DNA of 64,000 bases, taken from positions 186,001 through 250,000 of the forward strand of contig NZ_CABPSN010000004.1 of assembly GCF_902459565.1 (NCBI RefSeq), written 5' to 3'. Below, piece by piece: positions 8,908-20,011 of the stretch (the stretch's first letter is position 1; each line of letters begins with the position of its first letter). The stretch is from Pandoraea aquatica. Its GTDB lineage: Bacteria; Pseudomonadota; Gammaproteobacteria; Burkholderiales; Burkholderiaceae. The notes under the pieces were generated by a model that had not been told where the DNA came from, did not search any database, and saw only the letters and a program-made list of their open reading frames with translations. A program made the translations under genes and the position numbers.

Positions 8908-9426
8908 CGGCGATCTTGACGGTGATAGTGACGGAAGCAGGGGGAAGTCGCACGCAGCGCAGATCGCTTCCCCCGGATTTACCCCAGATTTGTCGTTTAT
9001 TTAAAAAATCGATGTTGCGCCGCACGAAACGCGGTACGCGACGCCTTTTCCCCAATGGGCCATGTGTCGCTAAGGCCCTGATTGCCCGAGTGCAGCCTGC
9101 GACACGCTCACGTGTGTCGCAGCCACAAAATCGGTGCATTCCACGGTTCATGCGGGTTGCGCGACAACTTGTCGCACCTGCGACATTCTGTCGCATTGAC
9201 ACGTTCCGCCAAAAATCTCGAATCACGTCATGGTGACGGTATTGGGTGTCGCACTTTCCCGTCTCGAAAACCATACGAATCAATCGTTTGGCTTGCGGCG
9301 ACGCAGCACGGATGAGGGGTTTACCGTTCGCAGACAAAGCGCATACTAGCCCTGCGTCTCGTCGATTCCGATAGCGAGAATCGATGACCGGCAAGGCTAC
9401 GAGCACTAAACAACGCGAGGTAACTT
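8908..9426. other. Long intergenic region with TGTCGCA dyads
   Basis: These 519 bases lie upstream of the first small membrane protein. GC is lower than in flanking genes, with an AT-rich run near 8996-9010. No open frame here has coding character. The notable content is the repeat cluster at 9065-9253, listed separately. Confidence 0.5.
9065..9253. repeat. Cluster of TGTCGCA/TGCGACA inverted repeats
   Basis: Three dyads share one heptamer core. Dyad 1: CTGCGACAC (9097-9105) and GTGTCGCAG (9114-9122). Dyad 2: GCGACAA (9161-9167), one base, TTGTCGC (9169-9175). Dyad 3: TGCGACA (9179-9185), TTC, TGTCGCA (9189-9195). Single half-sites TGTCGC occur at 9065-9070 and 9248-9253. All arms are perfect. 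The arrangement suggests a multi-site operator or a nucleoprotein/RNA structure upstream of the small membrane protein gene at 9427. Confidence 0.65.
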
Positions 9427-10891: not shown

Positions 10892-12352
10892 ATGAACGAC
10901 ATCGGCACCCCGACTCAGCCGTCGCTCGACACGGCCGCATTGCGTGAATTCGTCGAGCGCAAGTGGAACGACGAAATCCTGCATGCGCTCACCGACTACA
11001 TTGCAGTCCCGGCCAAGAGCCCGGGCTTCGACGCCGACTGGGCGCGCAACGGCTACATCGACCGCGTGGTGCGCGATGCCGCGCAGTGGGCCGAACGTCA
11101 GCCGGTCAAGGGCCTCAAGCTCGAAGTGATTCGTCTGGAAGGCCGCACGCCGGTGATCTTCTTCGAAGTGCCCGCCACGCGTTCGGGCAGTACCGACACC
11201 ATCGTGCTTTACGGCCACCTTGATAAGCAGCCTGAGTTCGACGGCTGGCGCAAAGACCTCGGGCCGTGGACACCCAAGTTCGAAGACGGCAAGCTCTACG
11301 GCCGTGGCGGTGCGGACGACGGCTATGCCATCTATTCCAGCGTGACGGCACTCGCAGCGCTCGACGCACAGGGCGTGGAGCGTCCGCGCTGCGTCGGTCT
11401 CATCGAGACCTGCGAAGAGTCGGGCAGCTACGATTTGCTGCCGTATGTCGACGCGCTGCGCGACCGTCTCGGCCGCGTGAGTCTCGTCGTCTGTCTGGAT
11501 TCCGGCGCAGGCAATTACGATCAGCTGTGGCTCACGACGTCGCTGCGCGGCCTGATCTCCGGCAGTCTCGAAGTGCAGGTGCTCGACGAGGGCATCCACT
11601 CAGGCGGCTACGGCGGCATTGCGCCGTCGAGCTTCCGCATCATGCGTCAGCTGTTCGAACGGCTTGAAGATGCGGGTAGCGGCAACGTGCTGCCGAAGGG
11701 CTTTCACAGCCCGATTCCGCTGCAACGACTGAAAGAAGCCGAGGCCACCGCACACATTCTCGGCGATGACGTCTGGAAGAAGATGCCGTGGGCCTGCGGT
11801 CAGGACGGCCTCTCCGTGCTGCCGACCACGACCGATCCCAAGGAAGCGCTGCTCAATTCGACGTGGCGTCCGTCGTTGTCGGTGACGGGCGCGGCCGGGC
11901 TGCCTGCGCTGGCCGACGCCGGTAACGTGCTGCGTCCGCGCACGGCCTTCAAGCTGTCGCTGCGCCTGCCCCCCCTCATCGATGCCGCGCAGGCGGTGCA
12001 AGAGCTCAAGGCGCTGCTCGAAGTCGACCCGCCGTACAACGCGAAGGTGACGTTCAAGTCCGATGCGGGTGCGGCCTCCGGCTGGAACGCGCCCGACGTC
12101 GCACCGTGGCTCACGTCGGCGCTGAACACGGCGTCGCAACGCCACTACGGCGCGGACGTCGCCTACATCGGTCAGGGCGGCACGATCCCGCTGATGAACA
12201 CGCTGCAAGCGGGTTTCCCGACGGCGCAGTTCATGGTGTGCGGCGTACTTGGGCCGAAGTCCAACGCGCACGGGCCGAACGAGTTCCTGCACGTGCCGTA
12301 CGCGAAGAAGCTGACGGCTGCCGTGGCCGAGGTGATTGCGCTGGCGCCGTAA
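10892..12352 (+). CDS. M20-family metallopeptidase
   Basis: This 486 aa protein belongs to the di-zinc M20 family (carnosinase/CNDP-like branch). Visible ligands are the H-x-D of VLYGHLDKQP (about residues 109-111), the D of LYGRGGADDGYA, the EE pair of LIETCEESGS, the D of VCLDSGAGNYD and the C-terminal H of NAHGPNEFLHVPY. Two short insertions match the dimerisation (lid) domain. Such enzymes hydrolyse dipeptides or N-acyl amino acids in the cytosol. It is convergent with the hydrolase operon at 12428-16985, from which a terminator separates it, so a shared pathway is possible but not shown. Confidence 0.88.
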   Translation: MNDIGTPTQPSLDTAALREFVERKWNDEILHALTDYIAVPAKSPGFDADWARNGYIDRVVRDAAQWAERQPVKGLKLEVIRLEGRTPVIFFEVPATRSGSTDTIVLYGHLDKQPEFDGWRKDLGPWTPKFEDGKLYGRGGADDGYAIYSSVTALAALDAQGVERPRCVGLIETCEESGSYDLLPYVDALRDRLGRVSLVVCLDSGAGNYDQLWLTTSLRGLISGSLEVQVLDEGIHSGGYGGIAPSSFRIMRQLFERLEDAGSGNVLPKGFHSPIPLQRLKEAEATAHILGDDVWKKMPWACGQDGLSVLPTTTDPKEALLNSTWRPSLSVTGAAGLPALADAGNVLRPRTAFKLSLRLPPLIDAAQAVQELKALLEVDPPYNAKVTFKSDAGAASGWNAPDVAPWLTSALNTASQRHYGADVAYIGQGGTIPLMNTLQAGFPTAQFMVCGVLGPKSNAHGPNEFLHVPYAKKLTAAVAEVIALAP

Positions 12353-12427: not shown

Positions 12428-13681
12428 TCAGATCCGGTGTGTTGCTGCCTCCATCACCTGCACGCCGCGCATGAAGTCATCGAGTTCCATACTCTCGGCC
12501 GGATTGTGCGAACCGTTGGCGTTGCGCACGAACACCATGCCGCTCGGAATGCCCGCGTTGGCGAAGATAGCGGCGTCGTGACCGGCACCGCTCGGCACGC
12601 GCTCTTGCGGCAGATCGAACGTTCGGCAGGCGTCTTCGAGCAGCGAGGACACGTGCTTGTCCATGACGGCCGGTGCCGACGCCAGCCGCCGGTCGAAGAC
12701 AAACTTCACGCCCCGGTCGCGTTCGATGGCGCGGCATTCGGTGCGCATCAGCTCATAGAAGACGTCGAGCGTATCGAGGCTCTGGCTGCGCACTTCCAGA
12801 CTGAAATCGACCTTGCCCGGGATGCGCGAGATCGCGTGCTCGGCGGGATCGGTGCCGACGATCCCGGTCGTGACCACCATGTCGATACCGCGCTCGAGCA
12901 GCGCACGCCAGTGCTCGTCGAGCCGCGTGATGAGGTCGGCCACAGCAAACATCGCGTCGTGACGCAGCCAGCGCGGCACCGCGCCTGAGTGTCCGGCTTC
13001 GCCGATACACGTCACGCGGTTGTGACGCACGTTGCCGCGAATGCCCGGCACGATCGCCACCGGCATGTTGCGCGCAATCATCACCGGACCTTGTTCGATG
13101 TGAAGCTCAAGCCATGCCTTCGCGCGTGACGCGTCGAAGAGCATCTCGCCTTCGCGAATGGCATCGACGTCCGCACCGGCCTGCGCCATGCACTCGCCAA
13201 GCGACCGGCCGTGGCTGCGATGCGGCATGGCGAGATCGGCGTCGGTCAGTTTGCCGAACAACGCGCTCGATCCCATGTAGGCGCGGCCGAACCAGGCGCT
13301 TTCTTCGCCGCGCAGGGCGAGTACGCGCACCGGGGTGGCGGTGTGACGCTGGCTGCGCCGTTGCTCGACGAGGCACAGCAGCCCGGCGACGATACCGGCC
13401 AGACCGTCGTAGTTGCCGCCTTGCGGGACGGAGTCGAGGTGCGAGCCGATCCACGTGGCCGGGGTGTTGCCGTCGTCCTCCGGCAATGCGAAGACGAGAT
13501 TGGCGGCGCGGTCGCGTGTGACGGTCAGGCCCTGATGGCCGGCCCATTCCGTCAGATACGAAGCAGCGGCGTTCTCGCCGTCGCCATAGCTGTCGCGGGT
13601 GATGCCGACGCCGTCGTTACCGAGACGGCGCAGGTCGGTGAAAAGTTGCTCGGCCAGCGGGGCCAGCGCGTTCAGTTCCAT
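12428..13681 (-). CDS. Zn-dependent N-carbamoyl-amino-acid / ureide amidohydrolase (M20)
   Basis: The protein is 417 aa from the ATG at 13681; the frame extends to 13708 without a usable start signal. It is an M20 amidohydrolase of the allantoate amidohydrolase / N-carbamoyl-L-amino acid hydrolase / β-ureidopropionase branch. Expected metal ligands are H81 and D92 (GSHLDSVPQGGNYDG), E126-E127 (RGEESAWFG), H194 (LELHIEQGP) and H392 (GSHNPAE). Family enzymes cut the ureido group from N-carbamoyl amino acids, giving amino acid, CO2 and NH3. As last gene of the transporter-PyrK-PyrD operon it would fit hydrolysis of N-carbamoylaspartate or a related ureide. The exact substrate is inferred. Confidence 0.85.
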   Translation of the reverse strand: MELNALAPLAEQLFTDLRRLGNDGVGITRDSYGDGENAAASYLTEWAGHQGLTVTRDRAANLVFALPEDDGNTPATWIGSHLDSVPQGGNYDGLAGIVAGLLCLVEQRRSQRHTATPVRVLALRGEESAWFGRAYMGSSALFGKLTDADLAMPHRSHGRSLGECMAQAGADVDAIREGEMLFDASRAKAWLELHIEQGPVMIARNMPVAIVPGIRGNVRHNRVTCIGEAGHSGAVPRWLRHDAMFAVADLITRLDEHWRALLERGIDMVVTTGIVGTDPAEHAISRIPGKVDFSLEVRSQSLDTLDVFYELMRTECRAIERDRGVKFVFDRRLASAPAVMDKHVSSLLEDACRTFDLPQERVPSGAGHDAAIFANAGIPSGMVFVRNANGSHNPAESMELDDFMRGVQVMEAATHRI

Positions 13682-13745
13682 GAGTGTGCTTCTTTTCGCT
13701 TGATGCAATGCGAGGGGGCTAGGGGGCTAAGCGTTGCGGGATGAA

Positions 13746-14705
13746 TCAGCCGGACTGCTGTGCAAAGCGCAGCCAGCGGTCGGATAGTTGTGCGTCGAGC
13801 GCGACAGCACCGGTGAGCGTTGCGATGCGCTCGACGTCGTTCGCGTCGCAATACGCGGCGAGCCCGTCGACGATGCGCACCATGACCGCCGGATCGCGGA
13901 ACGACGCCGTGCCGACCTGCACCGCCGTGGCCCCGGCAAGCATGAATTCCACGGCGTCGTCCGCCGTCTCGATGCCGCCACAGCCAATGATCGGGATGCG
14001 TACCGCGCGGTGGCACTGATGCACGAGTCGCACAGCGAGCGGTTTGATCGCCGGGCCGGAGAGGCCGCCCATCACGTTGCCGAGCTTCGGCTTGCGTGTG
14101 CGCACGTCGATAGCCATGCCAAGGACTGTGTTGCCCATGACGATGGCATCGGCGCCGGCGTCTTCGGCGGCGCGCGCAATCAGCGCGATCTGACCGGCGT
14201 TCGGTGTGAGCTTCACCCACAGCGGGTGCGACGTGCGACGCCGGATCGCGCTCACGGCTTTGTACGTGCTCTCGGCCTGCATCGCGAAGGCCATGCCGTC
14301 TGCTTCGAGATTCGGGCAGGAAATGTTGGCTTCGATGGCCGCGACTTCCGGCAGTGACAGCGTCTCGCAGGCTTCGCCGAACGACTCGGCCGTGTCTGCC
14401 GACACCGAGACCACGACCGGCGTATCGAAGCGCGCATCGGTGGTGTAGGCGGGCAACACGTCGCGTCGGTACGCTTCGAGTCCCTTGCTCGGAATGCCGA
14501 TGGAATTGAGCATGCCGCTGGCGGTCTCGGCCACGCGCGGCGTCGGATTGCCTGCCCGCGCATCGGGCGACACGCTCTTGACGACCAGCGCACCAAGACG
14601 ATTCAGATCGAGCGCTTCGGCATACTCGATGGCGAAGCAGCCCGACGCGGGCATCACCGGATTGCGCAGCGTGAGCGAACCGATACGAACGGAAAGATCA
14701 GCCAA
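13746..14705 (-). CDS. Dihydroorotate dehydrogenase, class 1B catalytic-subunit type
   Basis: The predicted start is TTG at 14705, 7 bases after GGAGG, giving 319 aa and an 8-base overlap with the upstream pyrK-like gene; the only ATG (14738) would overlap by 41 bases. The protein is a FMN-binding TIM barrel of the PyrD class 1 family. The catalytic cysteine C130 lies in NISCPN, and MLNSIGI, VKLTPN, GGLSGPAIKPLA and IPIIGCGGI are all typical. Pairing with a PyrK-like subunit indicates the NAD-linked heterotetrameric 1B type. Because it lies with a transporter and a ureide hydrolase, a catabolic (orotate-reducing) role is more likely than pyrimidine synthesis. Confidence 0.82.
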   Translation of the reverse strand: MADLSVRIGSLTLRNPVMPASGCFAIEYAEALDLNRLGALVVKSVSPDARAGNPTPRVAETASGMLNSIGIPSKGLEAYRRDVLPAYTTDARFDTPVVVSVSADTAESFGEACETLSLPEVAAIEANISCPNLEADGMAFAMQAESTYKAVSAIRRRTSHPLWVKLTPNAGQIALIARAAEDAGADAIVMGNTVLGMAIDVRTRKPKLGNVMGGLSGPAIKPLAVRLVHQCHRAVRIPIIGCGGIETADDAVEFMLAGATAVQVGTASFRDPAVMVRIVDGLAAYCDANDVERIATLTGAVALDAQLSDRWLRFAQQSG

Positions 14706-15663
14706 AATCCACCTCCCCGACCACGTCGCGAATGGCAAACACGGGGCCTTCGCGGCACACGCGCAGGAATTGCTTGTCGCCGTCGCAATCGAACAGGCGC
14801 ACGCACGACAGGCACACGCCCATGCCGCAGGCCATGCGTTGCTCCATCGCGACTTCGCCCGTGATCTCCGGATGCCCAGCCAAAACCCGCTGAAGCAGCA
14901 TCAGCAGACGATGCGAGCCGCAGGTGTACACCGCGTCGTGCGGCGCTGCGGCGAGCAGGGTGCGGATGCGTGGCTCAAGCGCTTCGACGGCCGACGAGCC
15001 GTCGCTGTCGAAGACGCAATGCACGTCGGCCAGTGCGCGCGCTTCGGGCGAGCGCAGGAATTCGTCGCGCATCAGATCGGCTTCACTGCGCGCCGACATG
15101 ACGACCGTCAGTCGCAGACCTGCAGCTGCGGCACGTTGCACCAGCGGGGCCATCGTCGCCAGACCGACGCCACGCGCGACGACCATCACGCGTTGCCAAC
15201 TCGTGTCGAGCGTAAAGGTGTTGCCGAGCGGGCCGACGATGTCGAGCGATGCGCCCCCGGTGAGCGTGGCGAGCGCGCGGGTGCCGACGCCGGTCACGTT
15301 GTACAGAAACTCGATGGTGTCCGGCTCGGGGCCGGTGCCGTAGACGCTCATCGGACGCAGCAGGAACGGCGCTTCGTTCTCCGTCACCGGACACTTCAAC
15401 TGATAGAACTGCCCGGGGCGCGTGGTGAGCGCGACGGGGGCATCCGCCTGCAAGCGCAGATAACGATAGCGCGCGTTGACGGCGTGATGCGTGAGCACCT
15501 GACAACGATGCGTGGCGACAATGTGTCCGGCGGATGATGCGCACGTCGCAGCGTCTGGCTGCGCTTCGTGTGCTTCATGCGCATCGTGCGAAGGGCACGT
15601 CGGCGAGTGCACCCGCGCCAATGGGCGGGTGACGTTGTTGGGCGTCAGAGAGACGACGGACAT
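14698..15663 (-). CDS. Dihydroorotate dehydrogenase electron-transfer subunit, PyrK-like
   Basis: The protein is 321 aa from the ATG at 15663. It has a ferredoxin-reductase-like fold: FAD site PGQFYQLKC plus LLRPMSVYG, a NAD-binding half (VMVVARGVGLATMAPLV), and a C-terminal [2Fe-2S] site with C279, C284, C287 and C303 (CGMGVCLSC, then VCREGPVF), which is the PyrK signature. It would pass electrons between NAD(H) and the PyrD-like FMN subunit encoded by the overlapping next gene. The N-terminal ~45 residues are a histidine-rich extension not usual in PyrK. The ATG lies 54 bases after the MFS stop, in the same operon. Confidence 0.82.
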   Translation of the reverse strand: MSVVSLTPNNVTRPLARVHSPTCPSHDAHEAHEAQPDAATCASSAGHIVATHRCQVLTHHAVNARYRYLRLQADAPVALTTRPGQFYQLKCPVTENEAPFLLRPMSVYGTGPEPDTIEFLYNVTGVGTRALATLTGGASLDIVGPLGNTFTLDTSWQRVMVVARGVGLATMAPLVQRAAAAGLRLTVVMSARSEADLMRDEFLRSPEARALADVHCVFDSDGSSAVEALEPRIRTLLAAAPHDAVYTCGSHRLLMLLQRVLAGHPEITGEVAMEQRMACGMGVCLSCVRLFDCDGDKQFLRVCREGPVFAIRDVVGEVDFG

Positions 15664-15716
15664 GGATGGGGGCTCCGGATAGTGGGGACGAAGGCTTGCC
15701 GAGTACGAGGCGTGCG

Positions 15717-16985
15717 TTATTCGAGTTCGGTGCCTTTGAGTTCGGGAATCAGGAAGCGCGTGGCGATCATGTCGAGCACGTACAGGCTCGCGAGCAGCGC
15801 GATAGCGATCTGGAAGGAGTAGCGTGCGGCAAGCGCACCGACCACGAGCGGGCCGAGGCCGCCGATGGCGCGTCCGATGTTCCACAGCACGTTCTGTGCG
15901 GTCGCGCGCGCTGCCGTGGGATACGCCTCGGACATCAGCGTGCCGTAGCCACCGACCATCCCGTTGACGAACATCCCCATGAACGCGCCGGCGAAGAGCA
16001 TCACGCCCGGATCGGTCAGTTGCGAGTAGACGATCACCATGACCACCGCACCTGCCTGATACAGCAGGAACGTGGGACGGCGTCCGATACGGTCGGCCAG
16101 TTGCCCGAAGGCCCACACGCCGAACATCATGCCGATCACCGTCGCCGCGGTCCAAAGGCCCGACTTCGTCAGCGAGAAGCCGAGCTTTTGCGAGAGGAAC
16201 GTCGGCAGCCAGATCATGATGCCGTAGTAGCCGAAGTTCTGAACCGAACACAGAATGACGATGCCGAGGCTCACGCGCGTGGTGCGGGCATCCTTCACGA
16301 GCAGACGAAACGCATTCGAGCTGCCGTGCTTTGGCGTCTTGTCCGTGCGGCGCACGAACACTTCCGGCTCATGCAGCTTGTTGCGCAACACCCATGCGAC
16401 GAGCGCGGGCAGCACGCCCACGAGGAACATGCCGCGCCAGCCGATGTACATCAGCAACAGCGGCGTGAGCAGCGCCGCTGCCAGCACGCCCGTCTGCCAG
16501 CCGAGTGCGACGTAAGACGACACGCGCGCACGCTTGGACGCGGGCCACGCCTCTGCCGCGAGTGCCATGCCGATACCGAACTCGCCACCGAGGCCGATGC
16601 CTGCAATCGTGCGATAGACCAGCAAGTCCCAGAACCCCTGCGCCAGCGCACACAGGCCGGTGAAGACCGCGAACAACAGAATCGTCCACGTCAGCATGCG
16701 CACACGGCCGTAACGGTCCGAGAGCGCGCCGAACAGAATGCCGCCGGCCACCGCGCCGATCAGTGTCCACGTGACGAGTGCGCCGGCTTGCCCCGCCGTG
16801 AGGTGCAGTCCGATCGTGATCGCCGGCAGCATGAAGCCGAGAATCAGCAGATCGAAGCCGTCCATTGCATAGCCGATGGCAGAGCCCGCAAGCGCCTTCC
16901 ATGCGTAGGGGGTGACGGTGTCGTCACCGGCGTTGGGTGAGGCGCTCGCGTGTTGTCTACGCGATGAATTCAGGTTGGCTTCCAT
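15717..16985 (-). CDS. MFS transporter, metabolite:H+ symporter type
   Basis: This 422 aa protein has about 12 TM segments. The motif after TM1 (GYAMDGFDLLILGFMLPAI) and the loop 2-3 motif GALSDRYGRVRML, plus IGLGGEFGIGMALAAEAWP, match the aromatic acid / sialate / metabolite:H+ symporter branch of MFS. It is the first gene of the operon leading to the PyrK-like, PyrD-like and amidohydrolase genes, so it probably imports the pathway substrate. A GTCTA-N6-TAGAC dyad lies 63 bases upstream of its ATG. A central cytoplasmic loop (EPEVFVRRTDKTPKHGSS) has the expected length. Confidence 0.88.
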   Translation of the reverse strand: MEANLNSSRRQHASASPNAGDDTVTPYAWKALAGSAIGYAMDGFDLLILGFMLPAITIGLHLTAGQAGALVTWTLIGAVAGGILFGALSDRYGRVRMLTWTILLFAVFTGLCALAQGFWDLLVYRTIAGIGLGGEFGIGMALAAEAWPASKRARVSSYVALGWQTGVLAAALLTPLLLMYIGWRGMFLVGVLPALVAWVLRNKLHEPEVFVRRTDKTPKHGSSNAFRLLVKDARTTRVSLGIVILCSVQNFGYYGIMIWLPTFLSQKLGFSLTKSGLWTAATVIGMMFGVWAFGQLADRIGRRPTFLLYQAGAVVMVIVYSQLTDPGVMLFAGAFMGMFVNGMVGGYGTLMSEAYPTAARATAQNVLWNIGRAIGGLGPLVVGALAARYSFQIAIALLASLYVLDMIATRFLIPELKGTELE

Positions 16986-17047
16986 GATCGGTTCCCGTGG
17001 GAGGCAAATGCTGTGGCGATTGATTGGGTTGTCGCACTCGCCAATTT

Positions 17048-17063
17048 GTCTATATTTTTAGAC
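17048..17063. promoter_or_regulatory. Operator-like dyad 1, before MFS operon
   Basis: A 16-bp element with perfect outer arms GTCTA / TAGAC around a 6-base AT core. On the minus strand it contains TATAGA, which could be the -10 hexamer, so binding would block or shape transcription of the MFS-pyrK-pyrD-hydrolase operon. It is one of three matching elements (others at 17427 and 18844). Confidence 0.65.
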
Positions 17064-17088
17064 GATCAGGTGAAAAAAACGCGTGAGA

Positions 17089-17412
17089 TCACGCGTAGAC
17101 CTCAGTCGTCAACTGGGCCGCGAACTGGTTGAGCGTAGCGAGAAAGCTGGCGTCGGAAGTGGCGGCAGCGTCGCGCAACATCGTCGCGTACGTTTTACTG
17201 CGGGTCAGAAAAGCGTGGAACGTTTCACCGTTGGTGGCAATTCCAGACTGTCTTTCTGCGAAAGCCTGGGCGGCCTGTGCAAGCAACAGCAACGCGGCAG
17301 ATTCGCGCGTGGCGGTGCGCGATGCATTCAGGCAGCGTGCCGCGAAATCTTCGATGTCGGACAGACCGACCGTGTCGCGCTGTAACCAGGCGCATGCGAG
17401 TTGCAGATCCAT
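17089..17412 (-). CDS. Hypothetical 107 aa helical protein of the regulon
   Basis: The start chosen is the ATG at 17412, preceded by GGAGAG; an ATG at 17424 lies only 2 bases from the operator palindrome and would have no ribosome-binding site. The sequence (DLQLACAWLQRDTVGLSDIEDFAARCLNASRTATRESAALLLLAQAAQAFAERQ and on) predicts an all-helical cytosolic protein with no membrane segment. I do not recognise a family. It has its own operator-like dyad and lies between the porin and the MFS operon on the same strand, so it is probably coregulated, perhaps as an accessory or regulatory subunit. Confidence 0.65.
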   Translation of the reverse strand: MDLQLACAWLQRDTVGLSDIEDFAARCLNASRTATRESAALLLLAQAAQAFAERQSGIATNGETFHAFLTRSKTYATMLRDAAATSDASFLATLNQFAAQLTTEVYA

Positions 17413-17426
17413 CGTGCTCTCCATCT

Positions 17427-17442
17427 GTCTAAATATTTAGAC
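17427..17442. promoter_or_regulatory. Operator-like dyad 2, perfect 16-bp palindrome
   Basis: GTCTAAATATTTAGAC is perfectly self-complementary. It lies 14 bases before the ATG at 17412, overlapping the likely promoter or leader of the 107 aa protein. Same outer arms as the elements at 17048 and 18844. Confidence 0.7.
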
Positions 17443-17551
17443 TAATCGAACATCACAGGGCAGGCAAGACGAAAATAATCGGGGCTAACCCTGATGTGCG
17501 GGGATGTTCAGCGACGGCGGGCGAGGCGGTTGTGCGCCCGCTGGGGAGGGG

Positions 17552-17583
17552 CGGCACTGACGAGCGGGGGCTCGTCAGTGCCG
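17552..17583 (-). terminator. Strong stem-loop after porin gene
   Basis: A perfect 14-bp stem (CGGCACTGACGAGC / GCTCGTCAGTGCCG) closes a 4-base GGGG/CCCC loop, 19 bases after the porin stop. No U-tract follows in the porin direction, so it may end the transcript inefficiently or protect the porin mRNA 3' end. Confidence 0.6.
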
Positions 17584-17602
17584 ACAGTTTCGCCGCGTCG
17601 CC

Positions 17603-18700
17603 TTAGAAGCGCACGCGCATGCCTGCGCCGTACGTTTGGCCCGTCGACATATCGCTCATGTGGTCGTACTTGTATGCGACGTAGACGTCGGTCCGCTTGG
17701 ACAGCGGGTAGTCGTAGCCGAGCGCCCACGTGGTGCGACGCTGGTTGTCGCCCGACCCGTTGGAGCCGGTGTAGGCCACCGACGCCAGCACGCTGCCCAG
17801 ACCGAGCGGCACCGATGCGCCGAGCTGACCCGTGTTCGCATGGAAGTTGCCGCTGGCGGCCTGACTCGCGACGAGCATGTACTGCGCGAAGAACTTCACC
17901 ACAGCCAGGTCGTACGAGAGGCCGACCTGCACCGTGTTCTGATTCGTCAGCCCGGTCACGCCCGGCAGTTGCGCGCCGAAGTCACCCGGCGTGGCGCTGA
18001 AATTCACGTACTGATAGTTCACGGCGGCGGCGAACGGGCCGTTGGCGTACGTGAGCGCAGCGGCCCACTTCTTCGCGCTGTGGTCCGTGGCGCTGTTGCC
18101 GGTGGCGTAGAGCAACGTGCCCGCCAGTCCTGCGTAGGACGGCGTGGTGTACGCCACCGCGTTGTTCCAGGCCGAGTCACCCACCACGCCCTGCGTTCCC
18201 AGACCCTTGTAGGTGTGGAAGATCATCGGCGAGAAGGTGTACGAGTTGTTGAACGGGTTGAACTGGATCGTTGCCAGGTACATCGGCGTGGTGATGCGCC
18301 CGAGACGGAAAGTGCCCAGTCGCGTGTTGGACAGCCCGACGTACGCGTTGCGCGAGAAGAAGCTGTCGCCCGCGAAACGGCCGTAGGTGCCGTTGTTCGG
18401 CTGGAAATAGCTCTCCAGCACGAACAGCGCGCTATTGCCACCGCCCAGGTCTTCCGTGCCCGACAAGCCCCAGTACGACGTGGTCATGCCGCCGCCTTGC
18501 TGCACGGCAGCCGCGTTGCCGCCGGGGTTCTTCACCGAGCCGACGTAGGCATCGGCCAGGCCGTAGAAGCTCACGCTCGATTGCGCATGGGCCGTGCTCG
18601 CGAGTGTTGTGGCACCCAACGCGACCGATCCCAACGCCACGGCGCGGGCCATGCGCGCCGCGCGAGTCGTCCCAAACACCTTTTGCCAGGTCTTCATCAT
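17603..18700 (-). CDS. Gram-negative porin, Burkholderia OmpC-like type
   Basis: This 365 aa protein has a signal peptide ending in STAHAQS (about residue 40), the opening strand SSVSFYGLADAYVGSVKN, repeated amphipathic beta strands (for example WALGYDYPLSKRTDVYVAYKYDH) and the terminal aromatic residue (GAGMRVRF) recognised by the Bam machinery. This is the general porin type common in Burkholderiales, forming a trimeric outer-membrane channel. AGAGGGA precedes the ATG-ATG start. A dyad matching the MFS-operon operator lies 144 bases upstream. It likely provides outer-membrane entry for the operon's substrate. Confidence 0.9.
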   Translation of the reverse strand: MMKTWQKVFGTTRAARMARAVALGSVALGATTLASTAHAQSSVSFYGLADAYVGSVKNPGGNAAAVQQGGGMTTSYWGLSGTEDLGGGNSALFVLESYFQPNNGTYGRFAGDSFFSRNAYVGLSNTRLGTFRLGRITTPMYLATIQFNPFNNSYTFSPMIFHTYKGLGTQGVVGDSAWNNAVAYTTPSYAGLAGTLLYATGNSATDHSAKKWAAALTYANGPFAAAVNYQYVNFSATPGDFGAQLPGVTGLTNQNTVQVGLSYDLAVVKFFAQYMLVASQAASGNFHANTGQLGASVPLGLGSVLASVAYTGSNGSGDNQRRTTWALGYDYPLSKRTDVYVAYKYDHMSDMSTGQTYGAGMRVRF

Positions 18701-19096
18701 TCCCTCTTTGTTTGTATAAATTTCTGGACGGCGCGCAGGCTATCACCGCCAGCGCGTTGGGTCATCCCCGGAAAGCTGTCAGGCCGTCTGCGAGTGACGG
18801 CATTCTCACGGCATGGGGGTGCCGTGTCCCGAATCGTGCGTAAATCTAAAAAATTAGACAATCGGAAAAATATTCTGCCGATCGATGTGTGGCGTGGGCG
18901 GCACGGGAAGGGGGATTTGCCCGAAGAAGGATTTCGTATCGACGGCCGATGCGCAGTCCGTCAGGCGGGTGAGGCGACCGGTATAATCCCGGCACTGCCA
19001 CGCGGCACGACGCGATCTGCGGCATTTCGGTGTTTCGCAATGTGCCGCAATGTCTCGCACGAGGGCGGTTCCACGAGGTATCCAACAGGGGGCGAT
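18701..19096. other. Divergent control region, porin / XRE regulator
   Basis: These 396 bases hold no gene. On the minus side, TATACA near the porin start could be a -10 hexamer. On the plus side, TATAAT at 18982-18987 is a likely -10 for the regulator, with only a weak -35. The operator-like dyad at 18844-18859 lies between the two. Confidence 0.5.
18844..18859. promoter_or_regulatory. Operator-like dyad 3, between porin and regulator
   Basis: ATCTAAAAAATTAGAC keeps the TCTAA / TTAGA arms of the dyads at 17048 and 17427, with one outer mismatch. It is centred in the divergent region of the porin gene and the XRE regulator gene, suiting control of both and autoregulation. Confidence 0.6.
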
Positions 19097-20011
19097 TTGA
19101 CTCGAGCTGCAACGACATCCCGGGCGCCGCGAGGCGCGCGCTTCAATTTCCGCGCCATTGGCGAACGTTTGCGCGCCTATCGGCTGGCAGCGGAATTACG
19201 CAGTGAGGATGTCGCCGAGCAACTCGATATCTCGCGCGCCGCCATCTATAAGCTGGAGCGCGGCGAGATCGTCAAGATCGACACGCTGGAACGGCTCGCC
19301 GCATTGCTGGGCGTATCGCTCGCCAACCTGCTTGGGGTAGAAGTCGAGTATCACGACTCGGCCGTGAGCTACTTCGAGCGCATGCGTCAGCTGGAAAGCC
19401 GTTCCGAGCGCATCGTGGCGCACTTCGATCCGATTTCTTTTCTGTTGACGTCCGACGACTACGACGTCTGGCTGCGTCACATGCTCGACGAGAGCATTCC
19501 GCCGACGCTCGTCGACCGCCATTGGGAAAACACGATCGATCGCGTGCTGGGCATTTTGCAGGAGCGCAAGTCGAGCTTCTCGCGTCAGCGTCTGGCCGTG
19601 ACGAGTCTGATCGGCCTGCGCCAGATCGAGCAATTTCTGCATCACGGGCTGGTCGGGCGACTGGGGCTGCCGCCGGGCGTGCAGCTGGAGCGCAAGATGG
19701 CCGCGCGGCGCGAAGTGTTGCGTATCGTCGAATTCCTTGAAGCCGATACGGCGGGCGTGCAGATCGGCATCGTCAGCGACAACATGCCCAACGAGACTTT
19801 CCAGATCTTCGAAGCGCAGGGCGAGGCGTACGTTGCGGTGTCGCCGTTCCGTCTCGGCGAGTTGCCGAATCTGCGAACGGGCATTGCGACCATCACGACT
19901 TCGCCCGATGGCGTGGGCATGTATCGCGCCATGATCGACCGTCTGTGGGCCGACTCCGCGAAGGGCAAGGAAGGGGCCGCATTGCTCGGCCAGTTGCTCG
20001 CGCGATTCTGA
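19097..20011 (+). CDS. XRE-family transcriptional regulator
   Basis: The predicted start is TTG at 19097 with AGGGGG just upstream (304 aa); the alternative ATG at 19040 lacks a ribosome-binding site. An N-terminal XRE-type helix-turn-helix covers about residues 20-75 (IGERLRAYRLAAELRSEDVAEQLDISRAAIYKLERGE..., LAALLGVSLANLLG). The remaining ~225 residues form a ligand-sensing-like domain without a motif I can name (YFERMRQLESRSERIVAHFDPISFLL, VQIGIVSDNMPNETFQIFE). It is divergent from the porin gene and is the obvious candidate to bind the GTCTA-N6-TAGAC dyads. The effector is unknown. Confidence 0.82.
   Translation: MTRAATTSRAPRGARFNFRAIGERLRAYRLAAELRSEDVAEQLDISRAAIYKLERGEIVKIDTLERLAALLGVSLANLLGVEVEYHDSAVSYFERMRQLESRSERIVAHFDPISFLLTSDDYDVWLRHMLDESIPPTLVDRHWENTIDRVLGILQERKSSFSRQRLAVTSLIGLRQIEQFLHHGLVGRLGLPPGVQLERKMAARREVLRIVEFLEADTAGVQIGIVSDNMPNETFQIFEAQGEAYVAVSPFRLGELPNLRTGIATITTSPDGVGMYRAMIDRLWADSAKGKEGAALLGQLLARF

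Follow-up and report, generated by a model that had tools for sequence, protein, structure and literature searches.

The question raised by this locus is why a Pandoraea genome should hold a class 1B PyrD-like subunit and a PyrK-like subunit, proteins of pyrimidine biosynthesis by family, in one operon with a transporter and an amidohydrolase. The window analysed here is a stretch of 64,000 nucleotides from Pandoraea aquatica (contig NZ_CABPSN010000004.1), and the genes in question occupy its positions 12428-20011. To judge from the sequence, the locus is very probably an inducible regulon for the catabolism of orotate by way of dihydroorotate and N-carbamoyl-aspartate. Its features, in window positions, are as follows.

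12428-13681, minus strand: M20-family Zn hydrolase, proposed N-carbamoyl-L-aspartate amidohydrolase (ureidosuccinase); TIGR01879, NF006771.
13746-14705, minus strand: PyrD, class 1B catalytic subunit, proposed orotate reductase; NF005574, PF01180.
14698-about 15663, minus strand: PyrK-like flavin/2Fe-2S electron-transfer subunit; PF10418, class 1B relatives.
15717-16985, minus strand: MFS transporter, proposed orotate/H+ symporter; PF07690, 196 bits.
17048-17063, unstranded: putative operator before the MFS operon; GTCTATATTTTTAGAC, one mismatch.
17079-17096, minus strand: terminator-like stem-loop 3' of the 107-amino-acid (aa) gene; weak when taken alone.
17089-17412, minus strand: p107, a 107-aa all-helical protein; no match in Pfam or NCBIfam.
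17427-17442, unstranded: putative operator before the 107-aa gene; GTCTAAATATTTAGAC, perfect.
17603-18700, minus strand: outer-membrane porin of the Gram-negative porin family; PF13609, 177.6 bits.
18844-18859, unstranded: putative operator in the gap between the porin and XRE genes; ATCTAAAAAATTAGAC, one mismatch.
About 19097-20011, plus strand: XRE-type regulator with a putative PLD/TrmB-like domain at the C-terminus, proposed to sense orotate and act as repressor; PF01381/PF13560.
10892-12352, plus strand: M20b, an M20 peptidase-like gene convergent to the operon; nearest model PRK07907, below its cut-off.

Each of the genes named in the initial annotation lies at or close to its stated position as an uninterrupted reading frame; starts were set from homologues and sequence. 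The MFS, PyrK, PyrD and hydrolase genes are joined on the minus strand by short gaps or overlaps; pyrD starts with a TTG that overlaps the pyrK stop, and the hydrolase gene with an ATG at 13681. The initial annotation had described this operon with an adjoining porin, a 107-aa gene and a divergent XRE gene, and the reading frames and family matches confirm it. The MFS product exceeds the cut-off of PF07690 (MFS_1) and scores 341.3 bits against TIGR00895 (aromatic acid/H+ symport), under the cut-off of 418.55. PyrK is up to 96% identical to its counterpart in P. commovens, and the gene order is that of 15 named Pandoraea loci.

The description of the two subunits as class 1B PyrD-like and PyrK-like holds, with both over Pfam cut-offs. 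PyrD scores 254.6 bits against PF01180 (cut-off 27), 359.6 against NF005574 (cut-off 269) and 308.7 against TIGR01037 (cut-off 270), and its best solved relatives are class 1B PyrD chains (5ue9, E 6.5e-80; 1ep1, E 6.3e-78). PyrK matches PF10418 with 47.9 bits (cut-off 23.9) and the chain 1ep1_B with an E value of 1.6e-24. Residues C127, K40, N64, N124, N129 and N189 of PyrD are identical in all 42 rows of an alignment that includes the window and leaves out locus L097; we take Cys127 to be catalytic, and the lysine and asparagines to form the orotate site of class 1B enzymes. Arg102 and Pro103 of the FAD motif are present in 42/42 PyrK rows, the 2Fe-2S cysteines C278, C283 and C286 in 41 (one gap), and C302 also in 41 (one Ala). 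One departure concerns the NAD loop, which is GGGIG in Lactococcus PyrK and RGVGLAT, nearly always after Ala, in the operon copies (41/42 rows, or 42/43 with Klebsiella; the remaining row is gapped). Such variation could show what converts a biosynthetic dehydrogenase into a catabolic reductase.

The same core recurs well beyond this genome. A search with PyrK yielded 42 loci carrying organism titles, whose gene content was determined by tblastn; the genera include Pandoraea, Cupriavidus, Paraburkholderia, Caballeronia, Burkholderia, Trinickia, Variovorax, Comamonas, Hydrogenophaga, Pusillimonas and Castellaniella, among others. Besides PyrK, present by construction, PyrD and the hydrolase are found in 42/42 loci, the MFS gene in 40 and the XRE gene in 37. 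The porin accompanies them in 25/42, p107 in 21, a small protein of similar size (c24) in 17 and M20b in 15; further additions are a PyrE-like gene (19/42), PyrC (15), AspA (15) and MaeB (5). The families of the added genes were verified on one representative each: the operon PyrC is a dihydroorotase (TIGR00856, 442 bits, cut-off 292.95) and AspA an aspartate ammonia-lyase (TIGR00839, 686.1, cut-off 681.2), the orotate-phosphoribosyltransferase-like (OPRT-like) protein reaches 229.9 against a cut-off of 245 for its best model, and the malic-enzyme-like MaeB 684.5 against 1178. The OPRT-like paralogues adjoin the operon, for example at L073:15138-15785, L076:14610-15251 and L081:14103-14738. 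Two loci are without the MFS gene; L081 has TRAP-type DctP/DctQ/DctM genes instead, and L085 has no recognisable transporter. A chance neighbourhood is ruled out by the conservation across the 42 loci. A PyrD match at E 1e-40 occurs in 45 of 299 genomes of a family-level sample, and in 25/32 of the listed genomes of the same genus; identity is at least 73% in 40 of the 45, and the other five hold only a 51-55% copy.

The operon PyrD is an extra one, since the genome encodes a class 2 PyrD elsewhere (G000:C4:578734-579603, 441.7 bits, cut-off 200). The remainder of the genome holds one PyrC (TIGR00856) and one PyrE, with a further PyrE match that is marginal, and a class 2 PyrD over the cut-off is present in 39/41 carrier genomes searched. 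The initial annotation had asked whether this is the only pyrD of the genome and whether a second pyrD and a pyrC could be found; the copy is not the only one, and both genes are present. Its view that a biosynthetic PyrD would not be expected in such company gains from the extra copy and from the hydrolase in every one of the 42 loci. A table in the available excerpt of PMC10395836 gives class 1B for Gram-positive bacteria, including Clostridium oroticum, and class 2 for Gram-negative bacteria; a class 1B enzyme beside a class 2 enzyme is noteworthy here for that reason.

The intermediate that the pathway requires is indicated by the ring-opening genes of other genera. The initial annotation had noted the lack of a dihydroorotase in the operon. 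It is indeed absent there, the genome having its single PyrC elsewhere, and the step is supplied by operon genes in loci of other genera, namely in 15/27 non-Pandoraea loci as well as in Klebsiella, Variovorax and, as a type I enzyme, P. putida plasmid loci. A search with the operon PyrC found a match in 25 of 26 genomes; wherever the operon has a PyrC (15 genomes), a further copy lies outside it (in G313 in pieces). Identity to the query is 67-100% for the operon copies and 56-62% for the others, small fragments in G313 excepted. In a tree of 31 rows, a single branch (SH-aLRT 100) separates the 15 operon copies from the 16 others, of which five belong to genomes with an operon copy as well and one to the genome of the window. 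The motifs HLHLRD, MPN, KLYPAGATTHSE, HGE, EHIT and TDSAPH, to which we assign the usual residue roles, carboxylate binding presumably included, are kept in the operon PyrC proteins, except that one or two rows deviate; the deviations in the last motifs probably stem from the partial row L097. The P. putida plasmid has the order MFS, PyrK, PyrD, hydrolase, a 453-aa dihydroorotase, a c24-type protein, malic enzyme and a chemoreceptor. Its dihydroorotase is of type I (NF006688, 701 bits, cut-off 535), and both types match the PF01979 amidohydrolase superfamily as distant kin from separate families. As either type fills the same slot, the pair is good evidence for the proposed intermediate.

The hydrolase is an amidohydrolase of N-carbamoyl-amino-acid type, as had been claimed; it exceeds the cut-off of TIGR01879 (265.5 bits against 204), and the Zn ligands H80, D91, E126, H193 and H391 are kept in 20/20 aligned rows. 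It does not reach the cut-offs of the AllC allantoate deiminase equivalog TIGR03176 (184.2 against 597.75) or of ErtE (264.3 against 520); by NCBIfam names, ErtD and ErtE are the hydantoin-5-propionate and N-carbamyl-glutamate amidohydrolases. The usual Asn-Val of the pocket loop is replaced by Ser, Thr or Ala followed by Arg or Lys in 18/18 operon-type hydrolases, which also carry the stretch GIRGN[VIF]R (one reads GLRGN and one SIRGN). R214 and R218 are invariant in these 18 proteins, from alpha-, beta- and gammaproteobacteria. The signature is absent from both paralogues in the same genome, which keep Asn-Val, one of them also having an Arg at the place of R218. We infer that the arginine-rich pocket fits a substrate with an extra carboxylate, such as carbamoyl-aspartate. 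Together with the operator described below, this signature allows carriers to be sought by sequence.

Regulation of the locus as a unit is indicated by a 16-bp palindrome, GTCTAAATATTTAGAC, found before the porin gene, the 107-aa gene and the MFS operon; no other site in the 5.96-Mb genome comes within one mismatch of it. Among the 42 loci, 23 hold strict sites, 50 in total, and every one of the 50 is at most 300 bp upstream of a regulon gene. A chance palindrome is ruled out, as shuffled loci (one shuffle per locus) gave no strict site. Operator-like sites are also present in the P. putida plasmid. The porin gene, the 107-aa gene and the MFS operon, sharing a putative operator, would form one regulon that probably includes the regulator. 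Judging by the stem-loop at 17096-17079 and an operator of its own, the MFS operon may be transcribed separately from p107; the stem-loop search in the region found seven, with 4.6 expected in shuffles. The regulator has a helix-turn-helix and a candidate PLD-like domain at its C-terminus, which may resemble the sugar-binding domain of TrmB; effector-sensing regulators of TrmB and XRE type are its closest known comparison. The helix-turn-helix of TrmB is a winged helix, whereas that of the window regulator is of Cro/C1 type.

Two further observations concern operators in other loci. In L092 (14932-18652), L093 and L144, an operator-like site with two mismatches precedes an operon for a Rieske oxygenase, a DASS permease and a reductase; the genes were read in L092, where they adjoin the orotate operon, and L143 seems to be the same contig as L092. 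There the regulon may extend to an oxygenase whose substrate is a related compound. In the Klebsiella plasmid locus L155, the divergent MFS/PyrK gap (about 8917-8936) holds another AT-rich near-palindrome, GTATC...GATAC, recognized by eye, which is a candidate operator of the 49%-identical Klebsiella regulator.

In the proposed pathway, the porin and the MFS carrier would import orotate, and PyrDK would reduce it to L-dihydroorotate with reducing power from pyridine nucleotides. A dihydroorotase, in relatives the operon enzyme, would open the ring to N-carbamoyl-L-aspartate, from which the M20 hydrolase would free CO2, NH3 and L-aspartate as a source of nitrogen and carbon. Aspartase and malic enzyme would then, in relatives, convert aspartate into fumarate, malate and pyruvate. 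For Pandoraea, ring opening would most likely fall to the one housekeeping PyrC, which catalyses a reversible reaction, or occur slowly without an enzyme, and aspartate would enter general metabolism; the Pandoraea form could therefore feed nitrogen rather than carbon supply. The XRE protein would probably repress the three transcription units through the palindrome, to be released by orotate or a product. The use of orotate or dihydroorotate suggested in the initial annotation is largely supported by the dihydroorotase, aspartase, OPRT-like and malic-enzyme neighbours, with orotate as the likely substrate and reduction as the likely direction.

Several observations weigh against catabolism of orotate by this route. 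No dihydroorotase or aspartase gene is present in the window operon or in any of the 15 Pandoraea loci, and 27/42 loci in all are without an operon PyrC. Among close aspartase matches in this genome only a fumarase-type relative was found, and the nearest relative is a class II fumarase (804 bits, cut-off 664.75). PyrK stays under all the listed NCBIfam PyrK cut-offs (best 119 bits against 219); these scores, and the Arg for Gly in the NAD-binding loop, make the electron donor uncertain. The hydrolase barely reaches NF006771, the 'allantoate amidohydrolase' subfamily (399.3 against a cut-off of 399). Two of the 41 carriers, a 2.0-Mb assembly (G319) and a metagenome-assembled Pandoraea (G338), are without a class 2 PyrD over the cut-off and have the class 1B gene only. 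Of 11 aligned OPRT-like proteins, six have a three-residue deletion in the catalytic loop relative to housekeeping PyrE, and these paralogues may be altered or non-catalytic binders of orotate. At the strict cut-off, no operator site is found in 19/42 loci; their regulator is just 47-56% identical in 16 and was not found in three. At the two-mismatch level the palindrome is not enriched genome-wide: it has 27 places, whereas the reversed control pattern has 77. Of the 27, 24 are additional two-mismatch places, which were judged background; in 22 of them a G or C falls within the four central bases.

Some of these points would suit an operon that degrades another cyclic ureide or substituted pyrimidine (an orotate analogue, uracil, thymine, hydantoin or allantoin), a possibility that we consider unlikely. 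It would agree with the subfamily match of the hydrolase, and the Rieske oxygenase, permease and reductase genes behind the operator-like sites of L092 and L093 might feed in a modified substrate. Against it stand the two dihydroorotase types and the OPRT-like gene that adjoin the same core, the presumed class 1B orotate ligands of PyrD kept in every row, and the conservation of the dihydroorotase motifs, the presumed carboxylate-binding ones included. Less probable still is a spare biosynthetic PyrD, anaerobic or quinone-independent, that stands beside the transporter and amidohydrolase genes by chance. In its favour, the two subunits belong to the NAD-linked biosynthetic class and would work without quinones. 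Most carriers, though, have a class 2 PyrD, and the core contains a carbamoyl hydrolase that would be expected to destroy a biosynthetic intermediate; this candidate is rejected on both grounds; the operator sites before the porin and transporter genes also speak against it.

We give equally little credence to homeostasis or detoxification of excess orotate, dihydroorotate or carbamoyl-aspartate in place of growth. An OPRT-like protein could return orotate to UMP in the 19 loci that have the gene, and such a role would agree with the Pandoraea version having neither PyrC nor aspartase of its own; the porin, the symporter-type MFS protein, the TRAP uptake genes of L081, and aspartase and malic enzyme elsewhere point instead to use as food.

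The chemistry proposed for the orotate operon is old. Clostridium (Zymobacterium) oroticum ferments orotate with dihydroorotate dehydrogenase, dihydroorotase and ureidosuccinase, which yield aspartate. The proposed reactions are the same, and its dehydrogenase is of class 1B according to the excerpt of PMC10395836. The present systems differ in belonging to Proteobacteria, in being clustered with a transporter, porin, regulator and operator and, in Pandoraea, in having no operon dihydroorotase. Compared with class 1B PyrDB/PyrK of known structure (1EP1-1EP3, 5KSW, 5UE9), the window pair shares the full-length PyrD match with its catalytic Cys and motif residues, and the RPxS motif and 2Fe-2S cysteines of PyrK; it differs in being additional to a class 2 enzyme and in the loop ARGVGLAT in place of GGGIG. 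The hydrolase shares the fold family, Zn ligands, catalytic Glu and pocket His with M20 N-carbamoyl-L-amino-acid and allantoate amidohydrolases (3N5F, 1Z2L), and differs from them in the pocket-loop replacement and the Arg-rich stretch described above. Reductive degradation of uracil employs the PreTA/Pyd dehydrogenase, dihydropyrimidinase and beta-ureidopropionase. In that pathway, as with ErtD/ErtE, a cyclic ureide is opened and the N-carbamoyl amino acid then hydrolysed; the dehydrogenase class and the ring-opening enzyme are different. Among the open-access matches listed, no paper on orotate-catabolism genes was apparent from titles and abstract beginnings; older or subscription work may exist. 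The cluster opens the old pathway of orotate degradation to tests on individual genes in tractable bacteria. The PyrD genes of Klebsiella and P. putida plasmid records are annotated as pyrimidine biosynthesis, so that metabolic models could assign carriers the wrong direction of flux.

We further propose, tentatively and with somewhat less than even confidence, that the genes form a mobile, self-regulated orotate module among Proteobacteria. It would combine a reductive class 1B branch (with the ARGVGLAT PyrK and perhaps a donor other than NADH), an M20 hydrolase specific for carbamoyl-aspartate, an XRE protein with a PLD/TrmB-like sensor, a new helical family of 107-109 aa and two recruited dihydroorotase types, with a lacZY-adjacent Klebsiella form as a possible adaptation to milk. 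PyrK relatives are found on 72 plasmid records, 53 of them from Klebsiella. In L155, on a Klebsiella pneumoniae plasmid (NZ_CP050823.1), the MFS, PyrK, PyrD, hydrolase, PyrC, XRE and 108-aa protein genes lie beside lacY and lacZ; the products are 54-70% identical to the window or reference relatives, with lower values for the XRE protein (49%) and for the small one (41% over 69 residues). At least 49 plasmid records hold at least 80% of this 11.5-kb orotate-lac stretch, and a milk or mastitis label is attached to 7/44 Klebsiella rows among the matches listed. Cow's milk contains about 80 mg/L orotate, as given in the excerpt of PMC12111157. The proximity of plasmid copies to lactose genes suggests milk as the setting of an ecological role; such a dairy function is our hypothesis, which the source labels do not prove. 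Reduced sets of PyrK, PyrD and hydrolase are found on two alphaproteobacterial plasmids, that of Roseomonas with an OPRT-like gene added. On the P. putida plasmid, a methyl-accepting chemotaxis protein gene follows the operon (L158:13172-14762), hinting at chemotaxis toward orotate.

The small helical protein p107 has no Pfam or NCBIfam match at E 0.001. It never co-occurs with c24, and one or the other is present in 38/42 loci; a profile comparison shows weak kinship between them (probability 80, E 1.3e-5). From p107 and c24 together, AlphaFold2 predicts a helical bundle with high confidence (pLDDT 88.8). The model revealed no convincing known relative; the HPt/CheA P1 fold was considered as a candidate against the background of helical bundles. 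We take p107 to belong to the orotate system, perhaps acting with the regulator or PyrDK. The convergent gene M20b is found in 15/15 Pandoraea loci and in none of the 27 others, with no operator site nearby.

A second, distinct PyrDK cluster was observed in four genomes (loci L136, L138, L140 and L141 in G101, G051, G006 and G015) and in the plasmid locus L157. In those four genomes its PyrD is 51-55% identical, and the RGVGLAT loop is also present in the one PyrK examined. It variously contains asparaginase-like, Rieske oxygenase, arylmalonate-decarboxylase/EutA-like, SnoaL-like and transporter genes, joined in L157 by a xanthine-dehydrogenase-like pair, and its substrate is perhaps another N-heterocycle.

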